Shown here: positions 15,566-46,449 of the stretch, one piece after another
Position numbering within the stretch: the first letter of the stretch is position 1
How the letters are laid out: each line of letters starts with the position of its first letter
Assembly: GCF_008806325.1 (NCBI RefSeq)
Contig: NZ_WACR01000011.1
Span: 1-64,000, forward strand
Length of the DNA: 64,000 bases
Direction: 5' to 3'
Source: Salibacter halophilus
GTDB taxonomy: Bacteria > Bacteroidota > Bacteroidia > Flavobacteriales_G > Salibacteraceae
Position numbers and translations under genes: made by a program
The notes under the pieces: generated by a model
Databases searched by the model: none
Told to the model about the DNA's origin: nothing
The model's input: only the letters and a program-made list of their open reading frames with translations

Positions 15566-18154
15566 ATGCAAATTGACAAGAACAAAACCTTAATTCATGG
15601 AATCGCTATTGTCTTATTTTTAGTCATTAGCGGAATATTTTTTTCACCTGCTTTCAAAGGTTTTGTTTTGTCACAGGGCGATATTCAGTCCTGGGTAGGA
15701 ATGTCACGAGCTATCCTCGACTTTAGAGAAGCTTACGGTTCTGAACCACTTTGGACGGCCAACATGTTTGGCGGAATGCCGGCATTTCAAATATCCATGA
15801 TTACTGATGGTAATTTACTGGGCTACATCAATGAACTGAGGAATATTTACCCCAGGCCACCATTTTACTTTTTCATCATGATGTCTTCTTTCTACATCCT
15901 GATGCTTACTCTAAAGGTAAAACCGAGACTTGCAGTATTAGGAGCACTTGCATTTGCTTTTTCAAGCTTTTTCATGATTTCATTGGAAGCCGGACACAAC
16001 AGTAAAATAGATGCAGTGAGTTATCTGCCCGCAATAGTTGCCGGTATGATACTTGTGATAAGAAAAAAATATATCGCAGGAAGTATTTTAACAGCCGTTG
16101 CGCTAAGTCTTCAAATTTCTGCAAATCACTTTCAAATTACATATTACACAGCAATTACACTCTTAGTTATTGGGATAGCTGAAATGGTCAGAGCCCTAAA
16201 GCAGCAGGAACAAAAACACCTGTTGAAAGTGATTGGTTTCCTCGTAGTTGCTGCCCTTTTAGCAGTGAGTTCAAATATCACGCGTTTGTGGACCACCTAT
16301 ACTTATGTAGAAAGTACAATGCGCGGTGAGAATGAACTCACAATTGAAGCTGATGGAGCGAGAAACTTAACAGGACAGGAATCAGGACTTGATAAAGATT
16401 ACATCACGAACTGGAGTTTGGGAATTGGCGAAACATGGTCACTATTATTTCCAAATGCAAAAGGAGGCCCAACTGGGGCGATAGGCAATAACGAAGATGC
16501 TCTTGAGGAAGTATCGCCAAGAGCGAGACAGTATGTTGGGCAAATGAATCAATACTGGGGCAACCAACCTTTTACAGCCGGACCGGTTTATGTTGGAGCG
16601 ATAATTGTCTTGTTATTTTTATTGGGGGCATTCACAGTTAAACACTGGCTTAAATGGCCTTTAGTTGTACTCACAGCTCTGAGTATCATGCTGGCATGGG
16701 GTAAGAACTTCATGTGGTTCACTGAATTGTTTATCGATTACTTCCCGATGTATAACAAGTTCAGATCTGTGACAATGATGCTGATGGTTGCCGAATTCGC
16801 TATGCCACTTTTAGGAGTTCTATTCTTAAAAGAACTTATTGAAAAAGATGGCTTTTGGGCAGAGAACAAGAAAAAAATATTCATCGTATCGGGAGTGCTT
16901 GCTGGAATCATGCTGCTTTTCATGATGACACCATCTTCATTTTTTGACTTTTACGCCAATGGTGAATTAGCGAGGTTTGAAGCACAAAAAAGCTCAAATC
17001 CGCAAGCTGCCAGTCAGATTGATATGATGCTGGCAGAGTTAGAAATAGCCAGAGAGTCGATTTTTAAAGCTGATCTACTGCGCAGTTTCTTTTTAGTCCT
17101 TCTAGGATTTGTAGGAGTATTTTTGATCGGACTCAAAAAGATTCAGCCAAAAGTGATAGTGCCAATACTGGCAGCTGTCATTCTTATCGATTTGTGGTTT
17201 GTTGATAGAAGGTATATCCACAATGAAAAAAGTGGCAGGAATTACGAAAAGTGGGTTAAGAAAGAAGGTCAAAGACAGCCTTACAAAGCTCAACCGTATG
17301 ATCTTCAAATTTTACAAACAGAACTTCAAAACAGGCCAGAAGTATCTCAGGAAGTAGAAAGAAACATGGCTGAGCTTCAGCAGAAAGAGGGTAATCTCGA
17401 TGAATCTGATAGAAACAGAGTTATGTTTTCTACTCTAGATTCAATGAGTAACTACAGAGTTCTCGATCTTGTAAACAATACTTACAATAGCTCTCGATCA
17501 TCCTATTTCCACAAAACTATTGGCGGTTATAATGCAGCTAAGTTGATGCGTTATCAGCAGCTGATCGAATTCCACATGAGCAGTGGAGGACAGTTCAACC
17601 GTTCGGTTCTGAACATGCTCAACACAAAGTATATTATCCAAAAAACTCAGAACGGACCATCAGTCACTCAGAACCCAGAGGCTATTGGGCATGCGTGGTT
17701 GGCGAAGAATGTAAATTGGGTTCCGAATGCTGATGAAGAAATTAAAGCGCTAGATAATTTCAACCCTAGAACTGATGTAGTAATCGATGAGCGATTTAAA
17801 GATAAAGTATCGCAAAAGGAATACAGTCAGGAAGGGACGATTACGCTGGAACAATTCAAGCTCAATGACCTCAAGTATTCAGTGGATCTGACCGATAAAT
17901 CGTTCGTTGTGTTCTCTGAAATATTCTATCAGCCCGGTTGGCAGGCTTATATTGATGGAGAAGAAGTCGATCATATAAGGGTTAACTGGATATTGAGAGG
18001 AATGGAAGTACCTGCCGGAGAGCACGATATTGAATTTAAGTTCCGCCCGGCAAGTTACGAAGTTGGTGAAAAGGTTTCTTTTGCCAGTTCATTAATTTTG
18101 GTGCTTCTAGCAATTGGTGTTCTGATCAAAAGCCTGAGAGGAAAAAATGAATAA
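15566..18154 (+). CDS. YfhO-family polytopic membrane protein
   Basis: 862 residues with roughly a dozen transmembrane segments in the first 550 residues, then a large extracytoplasmic domain and a last helix (FASSLILVLLAIGVLI). Seen: GDIQSWVGMSRAILDF near residue 38, MFGGMPAFQ, LEAGHNSKIDAVSYLPAIVAGM, and the C-terminal YQPGWQAYIDGEEVDHIRVNWILRGMEVPAGEHDIEFKFRP typical of YfhO proteins. The family is thought to add sugars to cell-wall or lipid acceptors (GT-C-like). The neighbouring GT4 gene overlaps by 8 bases, fitting a glycan role. Confidence 0.85.
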   Translation: MQIDKNKTLIHGIAIVLFLVISGIFFSPAFKGFVLSQGDIQSWVGMSRAILDFREAYGSEPLWTANMFGGMPAFQISMITDGNLLGYINELRNIYPRPPFYFFIMMSSFYILMLTLKVKPRLAVLGALAFAFSSFFMISLEAGHNSKIDAVSYLPAIVAGMILVIRKKYIAGSILTAVALSLQISANHFQITYYTAITLLVIGIAEMVRALKQQEQKHLLKVIGFLVVAALLAVSSNITRLWTTYTYVESTMRGENELTIEADGARNLTGQESGLDKDYITNWSLGIGETWSLLFPNAKGGPTGAIGNNEDALEEVSPRARQYVGQMNQYWGNQPFTAGPVYVGAIIVLLFLLGAFTVKHWLKWPLVVLTALSIMLAWGKNFMWFTELFIDYFPMYNKFRSVTMMLMVAEFAMPLLGVLFLKELIEKDGFWAENKKKIFIVSGVLAGIMLLFMMTPSSFFDFYANGELARFEAQKSSNPQAASQIDMMLAELEIARESIFKADLLRSFFLVLLGFVGVFLIGLKKIQPKVIVPILAAVILIDLWFVDRRYIHNEKSGRNYEKWVKKEGQRQPYKAQPYDLQILQTELQNRPEVSQEVERNMAELQQKEGNLDESDRNRVMFSTLDSMSNYRVLDLVNNTYNSSRSSYFHKTIGGYNAAKLMRYQQLIEFHMSSGGQFNRSVLNMLNTKYIIQKTQNGPSVTQNPEAIGHAWLAKNVNWVPNADEEIKALDNFNPRTDVVIDERFKDKVSQKEYSQEGTITLEQFKLNDLKYSVDLTDKSFVVFSEIFYQPGWQAYIDGEEVDHIRVNWILRGMEVPAGEHDIEFKFRPASYEVGEKVSFASSLILVLLAIGVLIKSLRGKNE

Positions 18155-19466
18155 GCGAGTATTGATACTCACTTATTACTGGCCACCAGGCTCAGGTCCT
18201 GGAGTTCAGCGATGGCTCAAATTTTCTAAATATCTTATTGATTTTGGCTGGAAACCAGAAATCGTAACGGTAAGGGATGGGAGTTACCCATCTTATGATG
18301 AATCTTTGATAGATGAAATTCCTTCTGAAGTAAAAGTTCACAAAACTAAAACTATTGAGCCATTTAAGGTTTTCAATGCTTTGACAGGAAATAGAGGGAA
18401 GAAGTCATCGGTAGGAATGAGCGGAATTAAAGATTCGGGTTCTCCGGTGAAAAAGTTAGGCCTCTATGTTAGGGCAAACTTTTTTATTCCAGATGCAAGA
18501 ATGGGCTGGAATAAGTTTGCTCAAAAAAAATGTGAACAGCTGCTCAGCGATAAAGATTACGGAGCTGTTATTACAACAGGACCTCCTCACAGTACACATC
18601 TAATAGGTCTAAAGCTGAAAGAAAAGTTTGGTGTAAACTGGATAGCAGACTTCAGAGATCCCTGGACAGGGATTTATTACAATGAGTTTTTACCGCGAAC
18701 ACAAACAGCAAAGAAGAAAGATGCGGAACTAGAGAAATCTGTTCTAAAGTCTGCTGATTCAGTTATAACTGTTAGCGAGGGACTCAGTCAAGAGTTGGCT
18801 GATATTTCCAATAGAGAAAGTGGAATAGAAGTTTTGTTCAATGGCTTTGATACTGATGATTTGCCTACCCAATTTCAAAAACGTAAAGACTTCTTTGTAA
18901 TTAGTTATATTGGTAATTATAAGGACAATCAGGTTGTGCCTGAATTAGAGAGTGCTCTTGAAGAGTTACTCAATGACGATGAAAACTTTAAAAATGATTT
19001 CAGGCTCATTATTACCGGAAATATCTCACCGCAAACCTCGAACAGATTTCAAAAAAGCCTGGGAGATGCTTTTATTAGAGAAGACTTTGTTCAGCACAAA
19101 GTAGCAGTTGAAAAGATGGTGAGTTCTGGAATGTTACTTTTTGTGATTCCCCAAACGAAAGGAAATCATTTAATTTTAACAGGAAAACTATTTGAGTATT
19201 TAGCATCTGGAAGTGATTTATTGAGCATTGGTCCTGTTGATGGAAATGCCTCTAAAATAATTGAGTCTGCTGAACGCGGAGATATGATCGATTATTCAGA
19301 TAAAGCGTCAATCAAAGATGCTATTATGAATAGTTATGAAAACTGGAAGCAGTCTAAAAAAGAAACTGAAAAGTTTTCACTTTCAAAAAAAGTGCTTGAA
19401 TATTCGCGTAAAGGTCAGGCAAAAGAGTTGATTAAAATTATTGAAAATTGCAGGAATGAAGATTAA
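18147..19466 (+). CDS. Glycosyltransferase, GT4-like
   Basis: 439 residues. GT-B fold: N-terminal LILTYYWPPGSGPGVQRWLKFSKYL, a middle segment ITTGPPHSTHLIGLKL and ADFRDPWTG, VITVSEGLSQEL, then the C-terminal nucleotide-sugar half (ISYIGNYKDNQ; GKLFEYLASGSDLLSIGP). No membrane helix. The start overlaps the YfhO stop by 8 bases; its stop overlaps the next start by 11 bases. Sugar unknown. Confidence 0.85.
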   Translation: MNKRVLILTYYWPPGSGPGVQRWLKFSKYLIDFGWKPEIVTVRDGSYPSYDESLIDEIPSEVKVHKTKTIEPFKVFNALTGNRGKKSSVGMSGIKDSGSPVKKLGLYVRANFFIPDARMGWNKFAQKKCEQLLSDKDYGAVITTGPPHSTHLIGLKLKEKFGVNWIADFRDPWTGIYYNEFLPRTQTAKKKDAELEKSVLKSADSVITVSEGLSQELADISNRESGIEVLFNGFDTDDLPTQFQKRKDFFVISYIGNYKDNQVVPELESALEELLNDDENFKNDFRLIITGNISPQTSNRFQKSLGDAFIREDFVQHKVAVEKMVSSGMLLFVIPQTKGNHLILTGKLFEYLASGSDLLSIGPVDGNASKIIESAERGDMIDYSDKASIKDAIMNSYENWKQSKKETEKFSLSKKVLEYSRKGQAKELIKIIENCRNED

Positions 19467-20553
19467 CCTCACAGACTTTCAAAGAGATCATGCCTTTTAC
19501 GGAAACATTGATATTGTAGCAACGATAAAGAGTTTTAACCTCCAGGCAATTCGTGAACGTTATTTAAAGTCTCAAAAAAACGTTTCTGGCAGATCTGGTA
19601 GTGTAGAAAGGAGAAAGGTTGATAAAGGAGGCATTGTTTCCATGTCATTGGAGAATGGAGCCTTAAAATTAAATGAAGAGTTTAGAGGCATTCCTGAACC
19701 TCGCGGAATAGATTTAAAAAAGAAAACTTTTTCTTTTTCAGCTGAGAAAGAGGTTTATATTCTCTGGCCAAATGGTGAAAAGCAGACAATAAGCAATCCA
19801 TGGTTTAGCTATATTCACACCGTTGAGCTAAACAGGAATATTACAAAGCTTTTGGTTTCGTCATCTGGCTTTGATATGATTCTAGAGTATGATCTTGATT
19901 CAAAAAAACAATCTGCAGAATGGCTGGCCTGGGAAAACGGATTTGATAAGGCAGTTGATCCAAATTCTGGGAAACCATTTCGACTCACAAGAAATAGTGA
20001 ATTGAAAAATGAAGATGGTTACAAAGTAATTGACGATCCTGAGAATCAGGTTTTACCTACAGCAATGAGATCGGCATTTATCAATTCAGTTTCTTATTGC
20101 GAGGATGAAAAAAACGTGTTGGCTACATTTTTTCATGAAGGAGCTGTTTTTAAAATAAACTTGAGTAATGGTCAGAGCCAAAAGCTACTTAGCGGAATGA
20201 AAAAACCTCACGGAGGTCGTGAAATACCTAGCGGTTTTATGGCGACAAGTACTGCTACGGGAGAGGTGTTTTTGAGGATTGATGGATCTGACCGAAAAAT
20301 AGACTTTACTAAACTACCCGGAAAGCCTGATTTTTTATCTGATGCAGAGTGGTTGCAGAACACGATTTATTTAGATGAAAACTTTATTACAATCGATTCA
20401 AACAGAACGAGTTTTGTGATCTTCAACCTCAATGAGGAAAAATTCGATGTAATTCCTTTTGATGATAACTGGGCTGTTCAGGATCTTGTTAGCGGAACTC
20501 TCTCAGATGCTCAAAAAGAGTTCATTCAAACGATTAGTCAAGAATCCACCTAA
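19456..20553 (+). CDS. Unknown protein, possible beta-propeller
   Basis: About 365 residues from the ATG at 19456 inside the end of the GT4 gene. No signal peptide or helix bundle. The sequence is a run of short beta-strand-like segments with repeated turn motifs such as VYILWPNGEKQTISN, TFFHEGAVFKINLSNGQSQ, KKPHGGREIPSGFMATSTATGEVFLR, suggesting a propeller. I do not recognise the family. Translational overlap with a glycosyltransferase and convergence with a PIG-L deacetylase suggest glycan metabolism. It carries two copies of the dispersed GGNTCTGACC word (20170, 20284). Confidence 0.6.
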   Translation: MKINLTDFQRDHAFYGNIDIVATIKSFNLQAIRERYLKSQKNVSGRSGSVERRKVDKGGIVSMSLENGALKLNEEFRGIPEPRGIDLKKKTFSFSAEKEVYILWPNGEKQTISNPWFSYIHTVELNRNITKLLVSSSGFDMILEYDLDSKKQSAEWLAWENGFDKAVDPNSGKPFRLTRNSELKNEDGYKVIDDPENQVLPTAMRSAFINSVSYCEDEKNVLATFFHEGAVFKINLSNGQSQKLLSGMKKPHGGREIPSGFMATSTATGEVFLRIDGSDRKIDFTKLPGKPDFLSDAEWLQNTIYLDENFITIDSNRTSFVIFNLNEEKFDVIPFDDNWAVQDLVSGTLSDAQKEFIQTISQEST

Positions 20554-21172
20554 TAACTTCAAATGCCTCAGCATATTCTGATCCAACCTGTACACCTCTC
20601 ATCTTACCTAAACTGTAGAAAAACTCATCTTCTTTGTAGGCTCTAAAACTTTGGGATTCATATTGGTTGATAGCCTCGATTTTTCGAGAAATATTCGAGC
20701 GATCTAACTTGACATAAAATCGATTTTCAAAAGCTACATCGTTCCAGGGAAGTTCGTAGCCTAAAACTCTTGTCATTTTGAAAGCCCTTAGTGCTTCTTT
20801 GTGGATTGTGTTATGATCCTGGTGAATATCTTTGCTGTTGGGAGCTATGACAAGATCAGGTTTAAACTCCCGATTCATTTTGACGAGTTCCTCGAGAATA
20901 GCTTGTCTGTGATCACTTAAATATCTTACAGGAAAGTCAAATGTTGTGACGTTTTCTGGTTTAATGCCTAACTTTGATGTCGCTTTGTTGAGCTCCTTGT
21001 ATAGGATGTCTTTAGGCAATCCATGAGGAACAGAAGCTTCACAAGGTGAAAAAGCTACATAGCGAACGGTAGCACCATTTTGGATAAATTTATTTAAAGT
21101 TGCACCGCAACCAAATTCCCCATCATCGGGATGAGGTGCGAGTATTAGTACTTTTTTTATGTTTGGGTTCAT
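20534..21172 (-). CDS. PIG-L/LmbE family deacetylase
   Basis: 212 residues. Metal-binding motif LILAPHPDDGEFGCGATL at the N-terminus and the second motif IHQDHNTIHKEALRAF. Enzymes of this family remove N-acetyl groups from N-acetylglucosamine-type sugars using zinc. It is not obviously BshB1 (the motif there is HPDDVELG). Overlaps the stop of the unknown gene by 20 bases, convergent. A -7 box (reverse-strand TATTTTTG) lies at 21201-21208. Probably modifies a sugar used in the flanking surface-glycan genes. Confidence 0.88.
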   Translation of the reverse strand: MNPNIKKVLILAPHPDDGEFGCGATLNKFIQNGATVRYVAFSPCEASVPHGLPKDILYKELNKATSKLGIKPENVTTFDFPVRYLSDHRQAILEELVKMNREFKPDLVIAPNSKDIHQDHNTIHKEALRAFKMTRVLGYELPWNDVAFENRFYVKLDRSNISRKIEAINQYESQSFRAYKEDEFFYSLGKMRGVQVGSEYAEAFEVIRWILD

Positions 21173-21200
21173 GAGCTGACTTTGTATTTAGTTCATCTTG

Positions 21201-21208
21201 CAAAAATA
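21201..21208 (-). promoter_or_regulatory. -7 box for the PIG-L gene
   Basis: Reverse-strand TATTTTTG (TAnnTTTG), 28 bases before the ATG at 21172. Confidence 0.35.
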
Positions 21209-21216
21209 TTCATGTT

Positions 21217-22077
21217 TTGAGAAAAAAAATTAAAGTATTAGGCAATAATACTGGCTTAGGAAATCAAATCCAATTTATTCCAATAATTGAATTGCTTAAA
21301 ACTAAATACGATGTTTTTAGTGATTCCAATGTTTTTTACGAATTAGGAATCCTTGGCCCGGCAGCTCCTGCTAAGAAAGCTGATATAAATATAACAGTAT
21401 TTGGATATGATGTTAAAAAATTTTGGAATGAAAAAATAAGAAATTCTGGTAAGTTTTTTGGATTTAAATATAGGGTGAAAGGAGTTCATACTGGATTTGG
21501 ATATGATAAATCAATTCGTTTTGATGAAAATAAAAATGAAATTGATAATAACATAGAAGCATTCAGATATTTTTTTAATGATCATTCTTCAGAAATCACT
21601 TACAATATCAATAAAAATAGAGAGATTAACTCTAATAAATTAGTAGTTGGAATATCACCCAAGAAAGAAAAAACATTACCTATTAGTTTATGGAAAAGGC
21701 TAATTGAGAATTTTGAAGAGATGGGATTCACTGTATACACAGTGGATCATGATATTGGTTATGGTAACTACGTTTCAACTCCTAGTCTATCAGGTCTAAA
21801 AGACTTTCTCAAAGACGCTGCTTATTATGTTGGGACAGATAGCGGTGTTATGCATCTGGCTGATATATTAAATATCCCATTATTGATCATGTTTGGTAGT
21901 ACTAGCATTGTTAAAAATGGACCCTACAATGCAAAAAGTAAAGTCATAAGTAGAGAACTCTCCTGTTCTCCTTGTTACGATTGGGGCAGAGTTAATTGTC
22001 CTTATGAATTCAGGTGCATGAATTTTAATGAAGAATATATCTTAAACAATTTTAAAGAACTATGTCAAAGCCAATAA
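21217..22077 (+). CDS. Glycosyltransferase family 9-like
   Basis: 286 residues, apparently from a TTG start (RKKIKVLGNNTGLGNQIQF); no upstream in-frame ATG is available. The C-terminal half has the heptosyltransferase-type motif YVGTDSGVMHLADILNIPLLIMFGS and a Cys-rich loop (LSCSPCYDWGRVNCPYEFRCM). Heptosyl- or similar transfer to a lipid-linked glycan is plausible; donor unknown. This gene is noticeably more AT-rich than its neighbours and begins the AT-rich segment that lacks the dispersed word. Overlaps the next gene by 16 bases. Confidence 0.8.
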   Translation: MRKKIKVLGNNTGLGNQIQFIPIIELLKTKYDVFSDSNVFYELGILGPAAPAKKADINITVFGYDVKKFWNEKIRNSGKFFGFKYRVKGVHTGFGYDKSIRFDENKNEIDNNIEAFRYFFNDHSSEITYNINKNREINSNKLVVGISPKKEKTLPISLWKRLIENFEEMGFTVYTVDHDIGYGNYVSTPSLSGLKDFLKDAAYYVGTDSGVMHLADILNIPLLIMFGSTSIVKNGPYNAKSKVISRELSCSPCYDWGRVNCPYEFRCMNFNEEYILNNFKELCQSQ

Positions 22078-22706
22078 TCTTAATATGTGGTGTTCCACAT
22101 TCTTTTACTTCTATGACTGCAAACTTCTTAATGAATAATGGAGGTTATTGCGATGATACATGGGATAACCCTGAGTTTGATCTAAATTACTCACGCTTTG
22201 AAAGTAAGGAATTGCAATTATTCCTTAGAGATAGAAAAAACTTTAAGGATAGAGACTTGAGTGAATTTTTTGATAATTTACCTAAAGACAAGGTCGTTAC
22301 TTTAAAAGCCCCGATGTTAATCATGTTTATCAATGAGTTTGAAAAATTTACAGATAGGCCTATAAAAGTTGTTTTCGTTTTTAGAAATCCTGAAGACATA
22401 ATTTTAAGTTCCATGAATAAAGGAAAAAAGAAATCCTTCATATATTTCTTTGAAAGAATTTCCTGGCTCTATGATTTCATGGTTTCATCAAATCTGCCTG
22501 TTTTTACTTTAGTTTCTGAGAGGTTATTAAATAAAAATGAAGATGATGCAAGAAGATTATTGGACTTTTGTGAGTTAAATCGGGATGCAATTGATTTTTC
22601 CACAATAGATTCTAAAAAAACGAAAAAGAGAAAAGTTACTTATGGTAAGTATCGGTTCGCTAATTTTTTCTGGAAACGGTTAGCTTCTTTTTTCAAAGCA
22701 GTGTAA
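22062..22706 (+). CDS. Sulfotransferase-like protein
   Basis: 214 residues. An N-terminal PAPS 5'-phosphosulfate-type loop, ILICGVPHSFTSMTANFL, and a central 3'-phosphate motif, KVVFVFRNPEDIILSSM, followed by a Lys/Arg-rich end. This arrangement fits the P-loop sulfotransferase fold, a little shorter than usual. It could sulfate a surface glycan made by the neighbours. Overlaps the GT9 gene by 16 bases and abuts the convergent flippase gene with no gap. AT-rich. Confidence 0.65.
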   Translation: MSKPIILICGVPHSFTSMTANFLMNNGGYCDDTWDNPEFDLNYSRFESKELQLFLRDRKNFKDRDLSEFFDNLPKDKVVTLKAPMLIMFINEFEKFTDRPIKVVFVFRNPEDIILSSMNKGKKKSFIYFFERISWLYDFMVSSNLPVFTLVSERLLNKNEDDARRLLDFCELNRDAIDFSTIDSKKTKKRKVTYGKYRFANFFWKRLASFFKAV

Positions 22707-24173
22707 TTAAGGAACCACTTTTTTGAATAATTTTTTCATTTCATTTGAAATATTCCAATATTGAATACTTACAATGATTAATAACAATGTAGTGGTTAAA
22801 TTTACTATTGTTTTGATTAATGTTGATTGTAGGGTGTTGTAATAGATTATTGATTGGATAAATACTAGGATAATAACTGTTTTAAAAGTTGTTCTATTAA
22901 AGGGCTGAATTTTAATTTTTATTTTAACAAAAATCAATTTCATTACACTCAAAAGCATTATTGAAATTGCTGTTCCCAAAGCAGCACCCACAATTTGATA
23001 TTTCGGGATTAGTATATAATTCAATCCAATTACAGTAATTAATGAAATAAGGTTCCAAATGAATGACCACTTGTAATATTTTGATTGAACAATTATGGCA
23101 CCGTTTACACCTGTTGCTACATTAAATAACTTTGATAGACCCAATAAAAAAGTGACTGCAAATAAGTCTCCAATTTTTTCAAATTTTAAAATGGAAATTA
23201 TTAAATCAAAGCCTCCAATTATTAGAGAAAATATTGCGCCACATATAATTAGCTGATTTATTGATGACTGTTTATACAGTTTTTCAACTTCTCTAATGTT
23301 ATTATTTTTGAAGTATTTAGCTAGTAATGGTGTCGATATTTGATGAATTGTCCTGGCTGGAACAGCTACTACGTTAGCCAGAAATAGAGCGATACTATAG
23401 ACTCCTGCATTCTCAAAGTTCGTCATAGCTCCTAGCATTACAACATCAACGTTATTTAATGCTGTATTTGGAAGTTTATTAAGCACCATGAACCCTGAAA
23501 ACCGATATAATTCTTTAAGAGTGACTTTTGTGTTCAGCGTAATTTGCTTGCTTAATACAATTAACTTTCTATAGTATAAATATCCAATTATTAATATGGC
23601 TTGAATACCATAGGCAATTGCAAACGTCAAGATAAAGCCGTCAAAGTCTAAATAGTTCAGGTAAAAGGCAGATATTACTCCGGTTTGTAGAAGTCTTAAA
23701 AAGAATTCTTTTATAAATACCGGAGGAACATTCTTCATTTGAGCTCTGGCATATCCAAAGAGTATTTCACTTACAACAGATGTAACTGAGATTAATATGA
23801 TACTGTAGTAATAATCAGTAAGTAAGCTGTTGCCTTTTCCAAATTGACTGATGATTAAGGGCTTGAAAAAAAATAATCCTATAATCAGTGTAGCTGATAA
23901 TATCAGTGCAATCTTGAGTATCCAATTGAAAAAGCCATGGTGGCCTTTTTCCTTGTCCTCAAGATGTGGGAAGTATTTGATAACTGTATTTGATAAACCG
24001 AGCTCACCAAATTGAGCCAGAATCATTGAAGTGGATATAATTACTCTGATTAAGCCAAACCTTTCAGCTCCCAGGATGTTTGGGAACAGAACTAACATAT
24101 TTAAATATCCCAGAGCGAGTCCAAGGTAATTCCAAACTGATGCGAGCGCACTTTGTCTAAATACTACCCCCAT
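22707..24173 (-). CDS. Polysaccharide flippase (Wzx / MOP superfamily)
   Basis: 488 residues, about 12-14 transmembrane helices. Motifs typical of oligosaccharide flippases: FRQSALASVWNYLGLALGYLNMLVLFPNILGAERFGLIRV at the start, and DVVMLGAMTNFENAGVYSIALFLANVVAVPARTI in the middle. Would move lipid-linked oligosaccharide across the inner membrane. It is the last gene of a tightly packed reverse-strand run (DUF4783, nadC, barrel protein, acyltransferase, flippase; gaps 10, 2, 0 and 1 bases). Confidence 0.85.
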   Translation of the reverse strand: MGVVFRQSALASVWNYLGLALGYLNMLVLFPNILGAERFGLIRVIISTSMILAQFGELGLSNTVIKYFPHLEDKEKGHHGFFNWILKIALILSATLIIGLFFFKPLIISQFGKGNSLLTDYYYSIILISVTSVVSEILFGYARAQMKNVPPVFIKEFFLRLLQTGVISAFYLNYLDFDGFILTFAIAYGIQAILIIGYLYYRKLIVLSKQITLNTKVTLKELYRFSGFMVLNKLPNTALNNVDVVMLGAMTNFENAGVYSIALFLANVVAVPARTIHQISTPLLAKYFKNNNIREVEKLYKQSSINQLIICGAIFSLIIGGFDLIISILKFEKIGDLFAVTFLLGLSKLFNVATGVNGAIIVQSKYYKWSFIWNLISLITVIGLNYILIPKYQIVGAALGTAISIMLLSVMKLIFVKIKIKIQPFNRTTFKTVIILVFIQSIIYYNTLQSTLIKTIVNLTTTLLLIIVSIQYWNISNEMKKLFKKVVP

Positions 24174-24174
24174 C

Positions 24175-25098
24175 TCAACTAATTTGATTTTTTATATCAA
24201 TCAATTTTCCTTTACCCCTTGTCCATACGATATTCCAATATGTTTCTGGGACCGGGCTGAAGCGCTCAAAGAATTTGGCTATAGATGGTTTATTGCTGCC
24301 ATAAAAACAGAACTCTTTTTGTTTATTTACTGCTCCCTTGATCCCAAAATCAATCAGTTGAACTTGATCTCCGGCAATTGAATGTTCCTTATTAATGCCT
24401 GAAGCTAAAAAGTAGACCTTTAGATGATCTTCAAGAAAGAGTGCTGTAGCAACAATATCTTTCTTTTCATTCTCAATTCCTTTGATCAAAACACTGTGTT
24501 CGTTTCCTACTTTGTTAAGAGCATTTTTTAACCTGTTCTTTTCGTAAGGTAGATTAGCTCCCTGATTTAAAAATGAAGCTTCATTTAAGGAGGTAAATGT
24601 CTCAAAATCGGTATCAACTATTTTATGGTGTTCAGTACTCTTTTTGATAAGTGATTTGTGTGACTTATGGTATTGCTGAGGTTCATGGGTATTCAAAGAG
24701 AACATGTTGATAGGTTTAACATTAAACTCATTCCATTTGAAGGGCAGCCAATATTCTTCATCGACACAAAAATTCACATAATGAAACTCTTTAAGCTGAT
24801 AGCTTATGTTCTCAATGATCTTTCTCTTTTTAGAGTAAAGCTTAGAGTTTGTGAGGTTTTGTGGCAAGTCGTAAACAAGTCCGTTTAGTGTGGTCATTTG
24901 AGGAGAAATAGCCATCTTAATACCGTATTTAGACTTAACTTCTAAAGGCAAATAGGCAATATACTTGCCGGCTTCTTCATAACCAAAAACATCCCAATTT
25001 CCATTTGTCATTGCATCAATCCAGGAGGGCTTGCAATAAAATGGAACTTCGTTATTCTCACAAAACTCGAGATACGCTTGTTTTGCCTGTTTTGACAC
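24175..25098 (-). CDS. FemAB-like / GNAT-fold acyltransferase
   Basis: 307 residues, GTG start directly after the stop of the barrel gene. Two GNAT-like halves: PFYCKPSWIDAMTNGNWDVFGY, then a central HKSLIKKSTEHH segment and a C-terminal half KDIVATALFLEDHLKVYFLASGINKEHSIAGDQVQLIDFGIK. This pattern matches the Bacteroidota FemAB-like acyltransferases found in surface-glycan loci. Acceptor unknown. Followed after 1 base by the flippase gene. Confidence 0.7.
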   Translation of the reverse strand: MSKQAKQAYLEFCENNEVPFYCKPSWIDAMTNGNWDVFGYEEAGKYIAYLPLEVKSKYGIKMAISPQMTTLNGLVYDLPQNLTNSKLYSKKRKIIENISYQLKEFHYVNFCVDEEYWLPFKWNEFNVKPINMFSLNTHEPQQYHKSHKSLIKKSTEHHKIVDTDFETFTSLNEASFLNQGANLPYEKNRLKNALNKVGNEHSVLIKGIENEKKDIVATALFLEDHLKVYFLASGINKEHSIAGDQVQLIDFGIKGAVNKQKEFCFYGSNKPSIAKFFERFSPVPETYWNIVWTRGKGKLIDIKNQIS

Positions 25099-26919
25099 TT
25101 AAAATGGTTGACTTATTCCGATGATATAACGCATTTCTACATATTCCTCTTCAGATGGTGGCCTGTTGAGGAATAACGGCAAATCTACTCGAATATTTAG
25201 TGGCAACAAATCATTGTACTTTCCCCACTTTACTTTAATAGCTACTCCAATTCCGGCATCAGCTCTAAAGTCGCCCCATTTAAGATCATTTTCAGGTGAA
25301 TTGACATTCAGGATTCCGGCATCTCCAAAAAGATAACTCTCAAAATTCAGGAAGTCATTCAAATCAAAAGGATTGAGACTCGATAATTTTGTGAATAGTA
25401 TCTCTGCATTGAAGGCAGCTCCGCTTGTTCCTCGATAATTACTGACAACTTCCCCGTTTTCAAATTGATAAGGAGCCAGGTAACCACTATAACCACGTAA
25501 ATTCAAACCTCCACTATGGTGAAACGTATTCGTTGAATTTCCTAACTCGGCTAGTTCAGCTGGCACAATACCTGCGGCTCGGGTAAAAGGGTTGTCAACC
25601 ATTTCGAGCGGATTTGCACCTGAGAGGTAAAGACTCGATTCCGGAGCCCAGTCCTCGCCAAAACCCATTTGACCAAATATTCTGGTTCTGACCGGTAGCT
25701 TACCTAAACGATGCTCATGCTTGCTTTCAAATTGCATGTAGGAATACGAATAATCAGAGAGTAATGCACTTGTAGCCACTTCCAGCCTGATGTTTCCATA
25801 TCCTTTGTTGTATTGATAGTTGTGGTCGAGTCCAAAATGAATGTTGCTGTTTACGCGATCAACGCCCCAGCCGTAAGGCATAAGCATATACTGTAGTGCG
25901 ATCTCATCTGGAATGTAATTGAGCTTGTAGAACCCGAAAAATGAAGTTTTTCCATTTGAACTGTTGAATCGCATTCCACCCTTTGCTAATTTGAGTCCTG
26001 ACATTGAGCGCAATTCAGCAAAAACTTCTGATCCTCTCCACAATCCCGGAGTAGCAGTGTTATATAAAAACTGAACATCCAGTTTGTCAAAATCGTTGTT
26101 GTTTTCATCTGAGACATCGTACTGGCCCAAACCTGTGTTGTATAAAAAACGCAATTCAAAATTGTGGACGTTATTCATATATCCACCATTGAAAACAGCA
26201 CCAACTTTAGCACCATCAAAATGATTATACCAGAGATCAGGACGCCAGTAAAATTTGTATTCATCTTCGTTGTAAAGGTCTCGCTGAAACTTGTTCAACT
26301 CGAAAGAAACCGGTTCAAATCGGTGGTTGTTTAAGAAATTGACATCAGGCGTGACCATAGCAGAGTCAACTGCGTATTGACGGTCAGATCCAGCAGGCAT
26401 TCCCACTTCGTAGCTCGCGTGGTTGACATCGGTTAGCTCTCCCTGGCTCTGATCGTGATGAGAAATTGAAAAGCCGCCAGTGTTTTTAACAGTATAAAAA
26501 ACCGAGTCGTTTTCATAGTGTTCGTTCGTGAGCTTGTAGTCGAGCGGTTCTGACTGATAGAGGAAAAAAGCCAGCGATTTATAATCGGGGCAGCTTGCAA
26601 TAATATGATTGGTGAAAGAATCAATCGTTTTTCGGTTCACGCTATTGTAAGTTTCCCAGCATCTCTTTGGAATCTGGCTCTTGGCGTAAAGTAGTTTCTT
26701 GAGCAGGTAATAGCTTTTAAAAGCTTCACGATGATTATCGTAATAACTCTCGGTGAAATGTTGGTTCAACGAATCGAGATTGAGATTAGGATCATTCGCT
26801 TCATCCCAAAAATGTGAAAAGTCAATCCTTTCAAAATCAGTATACTGTTGATTTTGAGGAAAGCCTGAAAGAGTGATTATAATGGTCAGAACCGAAAGAA
26901 AGATCGTTCTCATTTTCAT
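25099..26919 (-). CDS. Outer-membrane barrel resembling the C-terminus of M1-family peptidases
   Basis: 606 residues with a signal peptide (MRTIFLSVLTIIITLSGFPQ). The segment YKFYWRPDLWYNHFDGAKVGAVFNGGYMNNVHNFELRFLYNTGLGQYD closely recalls the C-terminal barrel of long Bacteroidota M1 metallopeptidases. No HExxH zinc motif or other catalytic domain is present in this protein or next to it. It therefore looks like a stand-alone barrel with a short helical N-terminal part (residues 40-130). The C-terminal strand ends MRYIIGISQPF, typical of barrels. 2 bases after nadC. Role unknown. Confidence 0.65.
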   Translation of the reverse strand: MKMRTIFLSVLTIIITLSGFPQNQQYTDFERIDFSHFWDEANDPNLNLDSLNQHFTESYYDNHREAFKSYYLLKKLLYAKSQIPKRCWETYNSVNRKTIDSFTNHIIASCPDYKSLAFFLYQSEPLDYKLTNEHYENDSVFYTVKNTGGFSISHHDQSQGELTDVNHASYEVGMPAGSDRQYAVDSAMVTPDVNFLNNHRFEPVSFELNKFQRDLYNEDEYKFYWRPDLWYNHFDGAKVGAVFNGGYMNNVHNFELRFLYNTGLGQYDVSDENNNDFDKLDVQFLYNTATPGLWRGSEVFAELRSMSGLKLAKGGMRFNSSNGKTSFFGFYKLNYIPDEIALQYMLMPYGWGVDRVNSNIHFGLDHNYQYNKGYGNIRLEVATSALLSDYSYSYMQFESKHEHRLGKLPVRTRIFGQMGFGEDWAPESSLYLSGANPLEMVDNPFTRAAGIVPAELAELGNSTNTFHHSGGLNLRGYSGYLAPYQFENGEVVSNYRGTSGAAFNAEILFTKLSSLNPFDLNDFLNFESYLFGDAGILNVNSPENDLKWGDFRADAGIGVAIKVKWGKYNDLLPLNIRVDLPLFLNRPPSEEEYVEMRYIIGISQPF

Positions 26920-41545: not shown

Positions 41546-41947
41546 ATGAAGAGTGTATTGGGATTTTTAGTAGTGTTTTTTCTGACACTAATTGTTAATG
41601 GTCAGAACCATGATCCGCGTGTTGATGAGGTTTACGGGACTTCTTTTATAGAAAAGCACGAGGGAACAAATGTCTTGAGCTGGCTTGAATTCAAAGCTAA
41701 AAATGGCTACTCTTTTGAAACGGTTCCGACCGAAAAACTGCAAGAATTAGAATTAGCAAGTTCCTATTTTCCAAATGATACAGATTGGAGTACTACTGAG
41801 AAATTCAATGTATTAAAGTTTAACGGGAAGCACGATCCTGATGAACGTGTTTATTTACGAGTTCCCGGTGAGGATAAAGTACTCATAATTTACTCACATG
41901 ATGAATTGCTCGAGCAATATAAAGCGAGCAAAATGGAGGAGAAGTAA
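41546..41947 (+). CDS. Small secreted protein of unknown function
   Basis: 133 residues. Signal peptide MKSVLGFLVVFFLTLIVNGQ, with the Gly-Gln-Asn junction encoded by a GGTCAGAACC copy. The mature part is soluble and acidic (NHDPRVDEVYGTSFIEKHEGTNVLSWLEFKAKNGYSFETVPTEKLQ; DERVYLRVPGEDKVLIIYSHDELLEQY). I do not recognise a family. It ends 1 base before the ATG of the T9SS protein, so the two are almost certainly co-transcribed and may function together. Confidence 0.75.
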   Translation: MKSVLGFLVVFFLTLIVNGQNHDPRVDEVYGTSFIEKHEGTNVLSWLEFKAKNGYSFETVPTEKLQELELASSYFPNDTDWSTTEKFNVLKFNGKHDPDERVYLRVPGEDKVLIIYSHDELLEQYKASKMEEK

Positions 41948-41948
41948 G

Positions 41949-44900
41949 ATGAAAAGGAGCATTTGCATAATAATTTTTTTACTGGTACTTTTTTCAATTG
42001 ATTTGAGTGCCCAGCAAAATATAACCATGCATACTGGCAACGTTACAATGACCGGTTGTAATGGTAACTTTTTTGATGACGGAGGTAACTCGGGGAATTA
42101 CTCTAATAATGCTAACGATACATTAACGATTTGTCCGGGGCCTAACACCGGCCTTCCTCAAATATCTTTTTCAAGCTTTAATCTTGGAGCTGGAGATATT
42201 ATGGAAGTTTATCAAGGGACTAATTATACACCTCAAACTTTAATTGGGACATTTGATCAAACAACTAATAATCCTGGGGTTATTCAGGGCAATACTAATG
42301 TTAGTCAAAATGGATGTTTGACTTTTGTATTCATCTCAAACAATTCAACCACTGATCAGGGATGGAGTGCCGAGATTGGATGTTATTATCCTTGCCAGGT
42401 AGTCGATCCATTTATATCGACTATTAATCCAGATTCAACTGACGGGTTTCTTGATTTATGCCAAAATGATACCGTTTCTTTCTATGCAGGAATTAACTTC
42501 CCTGAAAACGATACTTTCTATCATCAAAGTGCAAATACAACTACATTTTACTGGTATATTGATACTGTTGCAAATGTTGTTGATTCGGGACAGTTTGTTC
42601 AAATACCTTTTGATAGTGCTAGAGGTCAAATTTTAGGGCTTTACGCAGTTGATTCTAATGGATGTAGCTCAATTTATGATAATGAATTACCAGTTCGTGT
42701 TTCAACAACTCCGCATTTTGACAGCGCTGGAGCTTCAACTGATACTGTTTGTTTTGGGGAAACATTTGATCTTGAAGGTAATGTAGAGCCGGTTGAATGG
42801 TCAAATGCCACTCCAACAAATATTGCTGGAGTTACTTATTTGCCTGATGGTAGTGGTGTATCATATAGTTCAACACTGACATTTAATGATTTTGCTCCAG
42901 GTGCAACAGTAAATAATGTGAATGATATTATAGATGCTTGGTTAGATATTGAGCATTCATATTTGGGAGACCTTGAGATAGAGATTATTTGTCCTAATAA
43001 TCAGAGTACTGTGTTAAAACAGAATCCGGGAGGAGGAGGAACATGGTTAGGTGAACCCTGTGATAATAATTCAACCTTGACTCCAGGGAATGGCTATGTC
43101 TACAGTTTTCCAACTACTACGCCAACTTTTGGAGTAATGAATACAGCAGCTACTGTACCTGCAAATGATGCATGTAATAACAGCCCAGGGAATACCTTAC
43201 CTGCAGGATCATACACATCTGACCAACCTCTTTCTAATTTAGTTGGATGCCCTCTCAATGGGACATGGGAGCTAAAGATAACGGATAATATACTTATAGA
43301 TAACGGCTTTATTTTTGCTTGGGGAATTAATTTTCAGAGCTATCTTTATCCATCAAATATTTTGACTTATAAGCCTGGTATTGATAGTCTTGGCTGGATT
43401 GTAGATTCCAATTATAATGATGTGCTTTCTTCAACCACAATGGGGGATACAATGACTGTTGAACCAACTGTTTTTGATACTACTCTTGAGTACACTTTAT
43501 TTTACAGAGATAGTTTTGATTGTACTTATGATACTACGATTTCCGTATTTGTTCGTCCTCCCTGGGAACCTGTGTGCTGTGAAGCTGTACCACCAAATAT
43601 GACGAGTTATCCTGTTGGATGTCCGGGGGATAGTACGGGTTATGCAGTAGCAAGTCCTGTAGATTCATTGGGGCCAGCTCCATGGTGGTATACCTGGACT
43701 GATCAAAATGGCGATACAATAGCACAAGTAGATTCTGTGTTTACAGCTGATACGCTTTTCAACTTACCTTTAGGCCAGTACACAGTTGAGGTTCGAGACA
43801 GTATTGGGTGCTTTGCTTACAATAATGTTCAGGTGAATGAAGTTCCGCCAATGCAATTATCGATTAGTGATATTGAAGCTATTTCGTGTGCAGGTAACTT
43901 TTGTGATGGATCAGCTACGGTGAATATTAATTCTGGCGGTACTAGTCCTTACTCATTTCTTTGGTCGAATGGTGACACTAATCAGATCCCAAATTCATTG
44001 TGTTCTGACACAAACACTGTGTTCGTAACTGATGCAAGAGGTTGTATGGATACAATTGGCACGAATATTCCATCCCCTGATTCCATTGATGTAGTGGCTT
44101 CCGGTTCTGACACAATTTGTATTTCGAACTCTACTCCAATATCGGCTCAGGCAACCGGAGGGAATGGAGACTATGTTTACAATTGGACAAACACAGGAAA
44201 TGGTTCACCATTAAATGTTTCACCAATAGTTACAACTACTTATGAGGTTGTGGCGACAGACTCGAATAATTGCCCATCAGCAGTTGATTCTGTAACGATT
44301 TATGTTCGCGACTCTATTAGGGTTAATCTTGATTCACCAGATACAATTTGCCCCGGAGATACGGCTCTGATTCTTGCAAATACAACAGGCGGAGATGGTA
44401 ATTTTACTTATAACTGGAAAAACGGTTGGGGATCTGACAGTTTAGGCGCAGCTCCATTGCAACAGCCTGGTTATGTAGATGTAGCGATAAATGATGGTTG
44501 CGGATCGCCAACACGTGTAGATTCTGCATTTATTCAGGTTGGAGGTTACGACCAGTTGAAAATTGCAACAAATGGAGATGATACTATTTGCCTTGGTGAA
44601 AGTGCTGTACTCAGTGCTCAGGGACGCGGTGGAGATGAAGAATTCACCTACGTTTGGGATAATGGTTTGGACACAGGCAAAGTACATGCTATTGTTCCGC
44701 AAACAACAACGACTTACAATGTTACAGTAAGTGATAATTGCTTGACTCCAACTAATACGGCTTCGATTACAATAACAGTTGGAAATCAAAAAGACTTTGA
44801 TTTACTGGTTGATCAGCCTAAGGATTGTAAACCGGGTGAGTTCAAATTTGCTTTTGATACGATCAGGCCTGATTTTAATTATGAAATCAACTTTGGTGAT

Positions 44901-45566
44901 GGTTACAGACCGGTTTTTGAAGATTCAATAGGTCACACATTCCCAGGTATTGGTTGTTATGATATCAAAGCCAAAATTTACACTGATCTGGGTTGTCTTA
45001 CACAAAAGACATTCCCGTGCTTAGTTGAGGTTCTTGAAACACCAATCGCAGATTTTTCATTTAATCCGTTAAATCCAACCATTTTAGATGGGCAGGTTGA
45101 GTTTATCAATGAATCGGCTTATGCAGATTACTACAAATGGTTTATCGATGATTCACTTTCTAGTCAGAACCTTGAGTTTGCGCACTTGTTTGCAGACTCG
45201 GGAAAATACGCTGTTAAGTTGATCGCAGAAAATGAAAACGGTTGTGTTGACTCAACTCTTAAAGATGTGTTCATCGATTATAAATCTGCTATTTGGATAC
45301 CAAATGCTTTTACACCAAATGGTGATGGTGTTAATGATACATTCCTTCCTAAAGGTGACGGATTAACTAAGAAGAATTACTCACTTTTCATTTATAACCG
45401 TTGGGGAAATGTAATGTGGAGCACCAATAATCCTAAACAGGGCTGGAACGGAATTGGTCCTGAAGGTCTTCCAGCTGAAAACGGAAGTTATGTTTATGAT
45501 ATTTCATACATGCTTGAAGGAGGTAGAGAAATACACGAAAGAGGAGAGTTTAAATTGATCAGATAA
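41949..45566 (+). CDS. Large T9SS type B-sorted surface protein (CUB-like, P-domain-like, PKD)
   Basis: About 1205 residues from the ATG at 41949, chosen because MKRSICIIIFLLVLFSIDLSAQ is a clean signal peptide. Order: CUB-like domain (about 25-150, ISFSSFNLGAGDIMEVYQG); proprotein-convertase P-domain-like region (about 270-440, LDIEHSYLGDLEIEIICPNN and LNGTWELKITDN); repeated Ig-like/SprB-type units (SCAGNFCDGSATVNINSGGTSPYSFLWSNGD); a PKD-like domain (FINESAYADYYKWFIDDS); and the C-terminal type B sorting domain (WIPNAFTPNGDGVNDTF...NRWGN...W.G). Such proteins are exported by T9SS to the cell surface. No protease motif. Probably an adhesin. Lacks exact dispersed words, with several one-mismatch copies. 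Confidence 0.88.
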   Translation: MKRSICIIIFLLVLFSIDLSAQQNITMHTGNVTMTGCNGNFFDDGGNSGNYSNNANDTLTICPGPNTGLPQISFSSFNLGAGDIMEVYQGTNYTPQTLIGTFDQTTNNPGVIQGNTNVSQNGCLTFVFISNNSTTDQGWSAEIGCYYPCQVVDPFISTINPDSTDGFLDLCQNDTVSFYAGINFPENDTFYHQSANTTTFYWYIDTVANVVDSGQFVQIPFDSARGQILGLYAVDSNGCSSIYDNELPVRVSTTPHFDSAGASTDTVCFGETFDLEGNVEPVEWSNATPTNIAGVTYLPDGSGVSYSSTLTFNDFAPGATVNNVNDIIDAWLDIEHSYLGDLEIEIICPNNQSTVLKQNPGGGGTWLGEPCDNNSTLTPGNGYVYSFPTTTPTFGVMNTAATVPANDACNNSPGNTLPAGSYTSDQPLSNLVGCPLNGTWELKITDNILIDNGFIFAWGINFQSYLYPSNILTYKPGIDSLGWIVDSNYNDVLSSTTMGDTMTVEPTVFDTTLEYTLFYRDSFDCTYDTTISVFVRPPWEPVCCEAVPPNMTSYPVGCPGDSTGYAVASPVDSLGPAPWWYTWTDQNGDTIAQVDSVFTADTLFNLPLGQYTVEVRDSIGCFAYNNVQVNEVPPMQLSISDIEAISCAGNFCDGSATVNINSGGTSPYSFLWSNGDTNQIPNSLCSDTNTVFVTDARGCMDTIGTNIPSPDSIDVVASGSDTICISNSTPISAQATGGNGDYVYNWTNTGNGSPLNVSPIVTTTYEVVATDSNNCPSAVDSVTIYVRDSIRVNLDSPDTICPGDTALILANTTGGDGNFTYNWKNGWGSDSLGAAPLQQPGYVDVAINDGCGSPTRVDSAFIQVGGYDQLKIATNGDDTICLGESAVLSAQGRGGDEEFTYVWDNGLDTGKVHAIVPQTTTTYNVTVSDNCLTPTNTASITITVGNQKDFDLLVDQPKDCKPGEFKFAFDTIRPDFNYEINFGDGYRPVFEDSIGHTFPGIGCYDIKAKIYTDLGCLTQKTFPCLVEVLETPIADFSFNPLNPTILDGQVEFINESAYADYYKWFIDDSLSSQNLEFAHLFADSGKYAVKLIAENENGCVDSTLKDVFIDYKSAIWIPNAFTPNGDGVNDTFLPKGDGLTKKNYSLFIYNRWGNVMWSTNNPKQGWNGIGPEGLPAENGSYVYDISYMLEGGREIHERGEFKLIR

Positions 45567-45590
45567 GTTTATTCATCATATATTCATTAG

Positions 45591-45620
45591 AAAAACCATT
45601 GCATATTTGCGATGGTTTTT
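45591..45620 (+). terminator. Intrinsic terminator of the T9SS gene
   Basis: 12-base stem (45591-45602 with 45609-45620, one G-T pair), 6-base loop, followed by CGTTTTT. Confidence 0.75.
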
Positions 45621-45648
45621 CGTTTTTAAAAGCTAAAATTACTACGAT

Positions 45649-46449
45649 TTGAATTGGTTTAAACAGTTTGCAAAGGGCTTTAGCGCAAATTTTAAAGCCA
45701 TGAGTTTTATTAAAGATCACAATATGTGGGGATTTTTCATTTTCCCAATTGTGATCAATATTGGTCTGTTTTACCTGGGCTTTTCAGTAACAAGCGGATT
45801 GAGCGATTCCATTTTTGATTGGCTCAAAGATTTTTTAGGAATTAGCTCTTGGGAATTTGATGGAGCTGATACACTTTCTTCTGTCATTTGGTTCTTGATA
45901 TGGATTGTATTGAAAATCCTCTTCTTCTTTTTATATGCCTATCTGGGTGGATATATTGTTCTTATTTTAATGTCACCTATTCTTGCATGGGTGAGTGAGC
46001 GAACAGAAAAGCTTGCTACCGGCCGAGATTATCCCTTTAGCTTGAAACGGTTTATTACAGATGTAATTCGAGGTATCTTTATTGGTGTGAGGAGTTTCGT
46101 ACTCGAAGTGATTATTACGCTGGCTATCGTGATAATTGGCTTTATTCCAATCCTTGGCTTTTTGAGTCCCATCTTACTTTTTGCCGTGTCGGCTTACTTT
46201 TACGGTTTTTCATTCATCGACTATTCCAGCGAGCGAAAAGGGCTTAAGATGAAAGAATCGATGAGTTATGTGTCGAGGCGAAAGGGATTAGCGGTTGGAA
46301 CTGCTATGCCTTTTTCAGCACTTTTACTGATTCCGTATATAGGTCAAATGTTAGCCGGGTTTACTGCTGTCATCGGGACTGTGGGAGCTACTTTGGCCGT
46401 TTTAGAGGTTGATGGTCAAAGCCAAACTGAAATCACTTCACACGCTTGA
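45649..46449 (+). CDS. EI24/CysZ-like membrane protein
   Basis: 266 residues from an apparent TTG start (NWFKQFAKGFSANFKAMSFI). Translation from the next ATG (45700) would lose this conserved-looking amphipathic start. About 4-5 transmembrane segments. Motif YLGGYIVLILMSPILAWVSERTEKLATGRDYPFSLKRFITDVIRG is typical of the EI24 family, which includes the sulfate permease CysZ. No sulfur genes nearby, so substrate is uncertain. Overlaps the convergent lipoprotein gene by 17 bases. Confidence 0.8.
   Translation: MNWFKQFAKGFSANFKAMSFIKDHNMWGFFIFPIVINIGLFYLGFSVTSGLSDSIFDWLKDFLGISSWEFDGADTLSSVIWFLIWIVLKILFFFLYAYLGGYIVLILMSPILAWVSERTEKLATGRDYPFSLKRFITDVIRGIFIGVRSFVLEVIITLAIVIIGFIPILGFLSPILLFAVSAYFYGFSFIDYSSERKGLKMKESMSYVSRRKGLAVGTAMPFSALLLIPYIGQMLAGFTAVIGTVGATLAVLEVDGQSQTEITSHA

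Follow-up and report, generated by a model that had tools for sequence, protein, structure and literature searches.

A genus-restricted DNA word with same-strand exclusion in Salibacter halophilus, and an ordinary word-free gap among its polysaccharide genes

The ten-letter word GGNTCTGACC is dispersed throughout the genome of Salibacter halophilus. Copies of this word on the same strand exclude each other within about 2 kb, and copies on opposite strands do not, in two species of the genus. We analyzed positions 1 to 64,000 of contig NZ_WACR01000011.1 (the window, 64 kb), where the longest interval without the word (20294-25683) covers genes for polysaccharide synthesis. A first-pass annotation of the window had proposed that this gap is recently acquired DNA. 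From the pattern of copies, we propose instead that the word works like a polar DNA uptake sequence and that the gap is an ordinary interval, in which lineage-specific genes of high AT content sit within a long-established hot spot (probability about 0.58). Our claim is that the word works like an uptake sequence, not that it belongs to a known class of them. What merits further study is the word, with its exclusion of copies on the same strand, rather than the gap. Below, G000 is the source genome (the window lies on its contig C11), and G001 and G002 are genus-mates.

The word and its same-strand exclusion

The word was picked, together with its complement, as an out-of-line family by k-mer counts in the window. 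There are 38 exact copies in the window (18 on the plus strand and 20 on the minus strand) where 0.26 are expected (the mean of shuffles), or about 146-fold enrichment, and 65 copies with up to one mismatch where 6.84 are expected. The entire genome of 3.12 Mb has 1,482 copies (743 and 739 by strand), versus 4 copies of the reversed control. Words are 1.64 kb apart on average within the window (the first-pass annotation gave about 1.6 kb outside the gap) and 2.1 kb apart across the genome.

Successive words tend to alternate between strands. On the 460-kb contig C1 of G000, there were 140 runs where 103 were expected (z = 5.2). Neighbouring words were on opposite strands in 173 cases and on the same strand in 94 cases in our sample of G000, and in 241 and 105 cases in G002. 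In distance bins below 2 kb, same-strand pairs were at 0.16-0.77 of expectation in G000 and at 0-0.31 in G002 (and at 0.64 at 2-3 kb), while opposite-strand pairs were at 0.93-1.91 of expectation in G000 and at 0.72-2.56 in G002. Among all pairs within 2 kb, 60 of 208 were on the same strand in G000, as were 32 of 182 in G002. We compared these proportions to those for control 6-mers of similar frequency (744 in G000 and 803 in G002): none were as low, and the mean was 0.54. As few sites are common to both genomes (3 of the 52 that could be mapped; see below), the results from G000 and G002 are nearly independent. If the word were read without regard to its orientation, then it should exclude both strands alike, so we infer that the signal is read in one direction and that one copy suffices for its own strand for about 2 kb.

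The word is a lineage-specific dialect that is restricted to the genus. The three genus members have 1,482 (G000), 824 (G002), and 486 (G001) copies; 38 other relatives have 1-35 copies each; 32 other members of the family have 2-28 copies each; and the maximum among 394 other genomes from a sample of the phylum is 163. At the level of individual loci, just 2 of 80 loci with relatives of the window's nadC contain a copy (one each), and the three nearest named loci, all from metagenome-assembled genomes of Flavobacteriales, have none. We did notice a mild excess outside of the genus: G051 and G056, from another family (f25) of the same phylum, have 146 and 163 copies of the word versus 29 and 15 copies of the reversed control.

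To describe the word's context, we use 228 copies from 504 kb of G000. The wider consensus is GGHTCTGACCRWnA, with pyrimidines weakly favoured upstream. At the third base, G is almost absent (5 of the 228 copies) and A, C, and T all occur, and the downstream flank is R, W, n, A. Among 199 copies with one mismatch, the differing position was in the last two bases in 130 cases, and above-chance variation is also seen at the first G and at the second T. Most copies (215 of 228) lie inside called genes, with 118 in the sense orientation, 97 antisense, and 13 outside genes. Five of the six reading frames are used, and the sixth would give an in-frame stop. HIP1 is a palindromic word; GGNTCTGACC differs from its own complement, so it is not of the HIP1 type.

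Individual copies are short-lived. We found 63 words within 155 orthologous genes, and of the 52 whose sites could be mapped to G002, 3 were exact there. In the reciprocal mapping, 3 of 17 words from G002 were kept in G000. Word sites differ between these genomes at 4.7 of 9 positions, versus 3.1 for control sites. Since few words are kept and their sites are more diverged than the controls, we conclude that words turn over fast and sit where change is tolerated.

Where the word is scarce

The longest word-free interval in the window is 20294-25683 exactly (5,390 bp), as the first-pass annotation reported, and it has neither exact nor one-mismatch copies of GGNTCTGACC. The next longest is 5.2 kb. 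These intervals and the nearest words are:
20170..20179, minus strand: word copy GGCTCTGACC, one of two closely spaced words on opposite strands by the gap's left end
20284..20293, plus strand: word copy GGATCTGACC, left bound of the gap
20294..25683, no strand: the word-free interval
25684..25693, plus strand: word copy GGTTCTGACC, right bound of the gap
26382..26391, minus strand: word copy GGATCTGACC, the next one, on the other strand
41610..46854, no strand: second word-free interval (5.2 kb, 39% GC), mainly the gene for a 1,222-amino-acid protein with a predicted type IX secretion signal

The length of the gap is within chance. If 38 points are placed uniformly in 64 kb, then the probability that the longest interior gap is at least 5,390 bp is 0.82 (20,000 simulations). 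The corresponding probability is 0.19 for 65 points (the copies with up to one mismatch) and 0.54 under a renewal null that keeps the measured per-strand spacings (883 of 5,000 simulations, with 34-42 words). In positions 1-400000 of C1, 18 of 176 intervals (counting those at the ends) match or exceed the gap in length, and 21 of 255 interior gaps on C1 and C11 are at least 5.4 kb, including the one in the window. The gap is an ordinary interval of the word's distribution, and we rejected its length as evidence of anything special.

Across a larger sample, the word is scarce both in AT-rich lineage-specific genes and in the most conserved genes. The sample is 604 kb of G000 (460 kb of C1, 104 kb of C11, and 40 kb of C13), with 271 words and 541 genes called by a simple script. 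We considered a gene to have an ortholog if a hit in the sampled half of G002 (1.39 Mb) was at least 45% identical and spanned half of the gene. The 55 genes with under 34.6% GC (38.6 kb) contain 1 word where 19.3 are expected (P = 8.6e-8). Without the genes in the window's gap and in two cassette-like arrays (described below), this is 1 word in 44 genes where 14.9 are expected (P = 5e-6). Just 1 of the 55 low-GC genes has an ortholog, versus 154 of the 486 other genes. At the other extreme, genes that are at least 80% identical to G002 contain 6 words in 37.5 kb, versus 57 words in 120.8 kb for the other orthologs (P = 0.007).

The largest gaps are also of two kinds. Five interior gaps in the sample are at least 8 kb. 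Four of these are on C1, and none of their 37 genes has an ortholog; they contain two arrays with attC-like sites, an island with type I restriction and Septu-like PtuAB genes, and a block that includes a gene for a protein of 1,845 amino acids. The fifth is the longest gap that we sampled (19.0 kb, C11:76,812-95,808; L106 and L107). It lies on the window's own contig and contains tuf, nusG, rpoBC, and the genes for ribosomal proteins L11, L1, and L7/L12; 7 of its 15 genes have orthologs, and rpoB and rpoC are 87-88% identical. Altogether, 7 of 52 genes in these five gaps have orthologs, versus 147 of 466 (P = 0.006), and all 7 are in the rpoBC gap. The ribosomal protein operons on C1 form three consecutive word-free gaps of 6.2-6.5 kb. 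Orthologs exist for 46 of the 110 genes in gaps of 5.4-8 kb and for 102 of the 369 genes in gaps below that size (P = 0.007), and 29 of the 46 lie in the ribosomal protein operons. Without the ribosomal stretch, this becomes 17 of 80 versus 102 of 369 (P = 0.27), so we do not believe that gaps of this size are ortholog-rich in general.

Two different causes seem to empty stretches of the word: constraint and, probably, recency. The first-pass annotation had suggested that recently acquired DNA would not yet have accumulated the word, that word-free gaps might coincide with genes that are missing in relatives, and that the word might serve as an ancestry marker. Low-GC genes and the four gaps on C1 do show this tendency. 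Gap length alone is not a marker of ancestry, however, as there are few words in the rpoBC cluster and in those for ribosomal proteins too. A word-free stretch suggests foreign DNA only if low GC is added.

It is also possible that the gap is due to chance and that AT-rich genes lack this GC-rich word because of their base composition or codon usage, rather than their age. Besides the expected length of the gap, the word count rises with GC (rho = 0.34 across 92 bins, and a Poisson regression agrees), and the flippases in three relatives (G005, G011, and G013) are somewhat AT-richer than their flanks too. However, composition does not produce these words at all (0.26 are expected in the window and there are 38). 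Also, the low-GC genes lack the excess of near-words (1 one-mismatch copy where composition predicts 2.1, versus 232 and 59.6 in the other genes), and they are almost without orthologs in the G002 sample. We consider this explanation to be a substantial possibility, but we lean against it.

A possible uptake or recombination signal

In our proposal, a fragment that bears the word would be taken up and recombined more often, so that copies would build up in exchanged DNA by molecular drive. Words would be gained at permissive sites in DNA that is regularly exchanged by homologous recombination, and each copy would act directionally, with a reach of about 2 kb on the strand that carries it. The word would then accumulate in long-resident recombining DNA, would be kept out of strongly constrained genes, and would be missing from AT-rich newcomers. 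If the word is polar in this way, then the genome itself would hold, in the per-strand spacing, a record of how long imported tracts are and of their polarity. A genus-restricted word with strand-specific exclusion lets one ask from sequence alone whether such words act in one direction and how long the tracts are.

Uptake-type words are documented for Pasteurellaceae (uptake signal sequences or USS) and Neisseriaceae (DNA uptake sequences or DUS). The DUS contains TCTGA, as does GGNTCTGACC, and the USS has a core followed by an A-rich flank, as does our word. Like our word, the DUS is short, non-palindromic, and dispersed, without an orientation bias around the chromosome (PMC1939737), and it has lineage dialects and lies at permissive sites; it is also scarce in, or missing from, acquired genes and islands (PMC2397512, PMC7371117), which may hold for our word as well. 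More specifically, diversifying regions have fewer DUS than expected and recently acquired genes have none, while in the core DUS occur at permissive sites, and their spacing matches conversion tracts (PMC2397512). DUS-poor islands were used to locate integrative elements in Neisseria, with a check against the core genome (PMC7371117); this is the same idea of an ancestry marker, but in G000 gap length alone fails.

There are also differences. Our word is from another phylum and has another sequence, and it occurs once per 2.1 kb, versus one DUS per 0.4-1.1 kb (PMC7371117). In N. gonorrhoeae, 35% of DUES are inside genes (PMC1939737), versus 215 of 228 copies of our word. Our word, a putative signal, also has same-strand exclusion, and genes with orthologs do not carry it at a higher density. 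USS resemble our word in being dispersed and mostly within genes, and opposite-strand pairs of USS do occur (PMC7811141). However, terminator-type pairs of USS are common (one genome has 109 whose members are within 14 bp; PMC7811141), and we found only one pair of words less than 25 bp apart in 504 kb of G000. Another kind of orientation bias has been published, in which one orientation is favoured in reading frames and there is a bias to gene ends (PMC2346458). Among open PubMed Central papers, which we considered mostly by listing, we did not find a comparable uptake word from Bacteroidetes, Bacteroidota, or Flavobacteria, or a comparable report of orientation and spacing. Riemerella columbina, from the Flavobacteriaceae, is reported to prefer its own DNA, but the portion of the k-mer table available to us has only A/T-rich words (PMC7965970).

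Several observations weigh against our proposal. First, on the window's own contig (C11), alternation is weak (28 opposite-strand neighbours and 24 same-strand neighbours). Second, uptake sequences are expected to be enriched in the core genome, and by comparison to half of one genus-mate, the number of words per kb was 0.40 for genes that have an ortholog in G002, 0.54 for genes with a weaker homolog, and 0.48 for genes with none. This deficit persists after allowing for GC (coefficient -0.32, standard error 0.15), and none of our ortholog tests identified word-bearing genes as a more conserved set. Third, our first test, with 834 kb of G002, gave no deficit of orthologs in gaps of at least 5.4 kb (49 of 172 genes versus 81 of 369). 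Fourth, GC and age are confounded, as only one gene with under 34.6% GC has an ortholog. Fifth, H. influenzae takes up DNA equally well with its uptake sequence in either orientation (PMC1939737). Uptake words are thus not known to be strand-polar, and our word would differ from the USS in this respect.

The sixth concerns the uptake machinery. DprA is present in all three genus members (one is partial) and ComEC is present in G000 and G002, but nearly all of the wordless relatives have both, so these genes are not discriminating. G000 also has a locus that resembles a type II secretion system or type IV pilus:
C13:5339-14347 (L147): secretin, ATPase, inner-membrane protein, and prepilin genes; one pilin is just over the cut-off for the Pfam family ComP_DUS
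We did not find this locus in the word-bearing genomes G001 and G002 (which are 83% and 94% complete), and it does occur in wordless relatives. We rejected the ComP_DUS match as the receptor, as this family matched 8 wordless genomes (4 over the cut-off) and neither G001 nor G002. More tentatively, this genus of Bacteroidota may have evolved its own one-direction uptake or recombination word, independently of DUS and USS, with same-strand suppression over 2-3 kb. In two of the three carriers, both with incomplete assemblies, we found no pilus-type ATPase that passed the cut-off, so the receptor may be a novel type. We judge this reading as a whole to be less likely than not.

The main rival to an uptake-like word is a Chi-like signal, which would be read in one orientation by a helicase-nuclease of the RecBCD or AddAB type and would be spaced evenly on each strand so that breaks are repairable from either side. 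Orientation-dependent action would likewise give per-strand spacing, so same-strand exclusion over about 2 kb with free placement on the opposite strand suits such a signal. Also, opposite-strand pairs within 500 bp favour the divergent order (67 versus 31 in G000 and G002 together). However, the word has no strand bias across ten bins of C1, even though the GC skew there is of one sign throughout, so it lacks a leading-strand or replication orientation bias. Furthermore, Chi sites are shorter and far less enriched than GGNTCTGACC, and the word's enrichment in the window, informative flanks, and sharp restriction to the genus go beyond those of Chi sites. We view a Chi-like role as unlikely. 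It is quite improbable that the word is a chromosome-organising or partition site that is bound by a nucleoid protein: it is found genome-wide and its per-strand spacing is more even than random (coefficient of variation 0.77), but its sites turn over fast, its exclusion is only for the same strand, and on C1 it lacks the strong skew to one strand per replichore of the FtsK-orienting KOPS sites.

Gene content of the gap and of other word-free stretches

The genes in the gap and its frame are:
18147..19466, plus strand: glycosyltransferase family 4-like gene, left frame; weak match to PF13439, below the cut-off; 47-51% identical in G005, G011, G013, G026, and G030, with conserved order
19441..20553, plus strand: gene with two words and no Pfam match; kept between the family 4-like and PIG-L genes in G026 and G030
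20534..21172, minus strand: PIG-L deacetylase-like gene (PF02585); 51-59% identical in G005, G011, G026, and G030, with conserved order
21217..22077, plus strand: glycosyltransferase family 9-like gene, 30.0% GC (PF01075); no close relative
22062..22706, plus strand: sulfotransferase-like gene, 30.5% GC (PF00685 at 20.0 bits, cut-off 22)
22707..24173, minus strand: polysaccharide flippase-like gene, 31.6% GC (PF01943); 28-34% identical in G005, G011, and G013, in a conserved frame
24175..25098, minus strand: acyltransferase-like gene (name from the first-pass annotation), no Pfam match; relatives of 22-27% identity, adjoins the flippase in G013
25099..26919, minus strand: gene for a 606-amino-acid protein, right frame, three words, no Pfam match; relatives of 36-43% identity
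26922..27755, minus strand: nadC-type quinolinate phosphoribosyltransferase, right frame (PF01729, PF02749)

Pfam bears out the names of the PIG-L, family 9, and flippase genes that had been given from the sequence; the sulfotransferase-like gene is just below the cut-off and the acyltransferase-like gene has no match. The claim that these genes are AT-rich is correct for the family 9, sulfotransferase-like, and flippase genes, which are at the 1.1, 1.6, and 2.0 percentiles of GC among 443 genes. The acyltransferase-like gene (35.3% GC) is at the 11th percentile and the PIG-L gene (38.5% GC) is at the 27th. For GC at third codon positions, the family 9 gene alone is extreme (0.7th percentile). 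A comparison of GC, codon usage, and word density had been suggested as a check. Word count does rise with GC, and no gene in the gap is at the unusual end of the codon-use score (49th, 96th, 61st, 51st, and 47th percentiles, from PIG-L to the acyltransferase-like gene).

Most of the neighbourhood is old. The stretch from the carbamoyl-phosphate synthase large chain to RlmH (window:12423-28680) is wholly or partly kept in five relatives from other genera, around a variable polysaccharide slot. In G011, the order is carbamoyl-phosphate synthase large chain, DUF4834, YfhO, family 4 glycosyltransferase, PIG-L, flippase, the 606-amino-acid gene, nadC, the next gene, and RlmH, with other genes interspersed. 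G005 keeps the part from DUF4834 to RlmH. G026 and G030 keep the part from carbamoyl-phosphate synthase to PIG-L, plus the acyltransferase-like gene. In G013, this region is on two contigs, with carbamoyl-phosphate synthase to the family 4 gene on one and the flippase and the acyltransferase-like gene on the other. In contrast, the family 9 gene has only weak matches in 24 relatives (the best is in G025, E = 1.8e-9 at 25% identity) and none in G001 or G002, and the sulfotransferase-like gene has no match of its own in the 24 relatives. Thus, three of the five genes in the gap (PIG-L, flippase, and acyltransferase-like) are in conserved order and two lack close relatives.

We therefore rejected the idea that the entire segment is one recently acquired block. 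Conservation of the same genes in order in relatives, together with word-free gaps that are equally common in core regions, had been named as what would refute the first-pass interpretation, and this is largely what we found, given the synteny and the rpoBC and ribosomal gaps. The segment is an old polysaccharide neighbourhood or hot spot with two young-looking genes, and the family 9 and sulfotransferase-like genes may have arrived late. The low GC of the flippase is partly a family trait, as the flippases of G005, G011, and G013 are also somewhat AT-richer than their flanks.

The genus-mates are less informative. In G002, the family 4 glycosyltransferase and YfhO, the 606-amino-acid gene, and nadC are on three separate contigs, with words on each, and nadC has other genes in place of its gap-side neighbour in the window. 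The best match to PIG-L in G002 is 43% identical, and the matches to the acyltransferase-like gene in G001 and G002 are 27% identical. These identities are below or near those from other genera, so these may be paralogs. The flippase has no match in G001 or G002. Absence from these two genomes is weak evidence because RlmH, which is expected in all bacteria, is also unmatched in both.

Three of the large gaps on C1 have recognizable contents:
L087:4945-10091 and L093:7206-13674: wordless cassette-like arrays of single short genes, with 13 attC-like hairpin sites
L097:13018-19961 (C1:273-280 kb): wordless defence island with a gene like PLD nucleases, HsdM, PtuB-like, PtuA-like, and HsdS
The count of zero words in the two arrays is post hoc, as the arrays were found as large gaps. 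None of 25 genomes has an integron integrase over the TIGR02249 cut-off, so we leave the arrays unassigned as integrons. A scan of the window and the two array loci with Rfam gave one tRNA only. One further, partial attC-like site lies in another gap. Finally, two words in opposite orientations and 13 bases apart form an inverted repeat (L087:11527-11549, at C1:71,527) that adjoins a cassette array.

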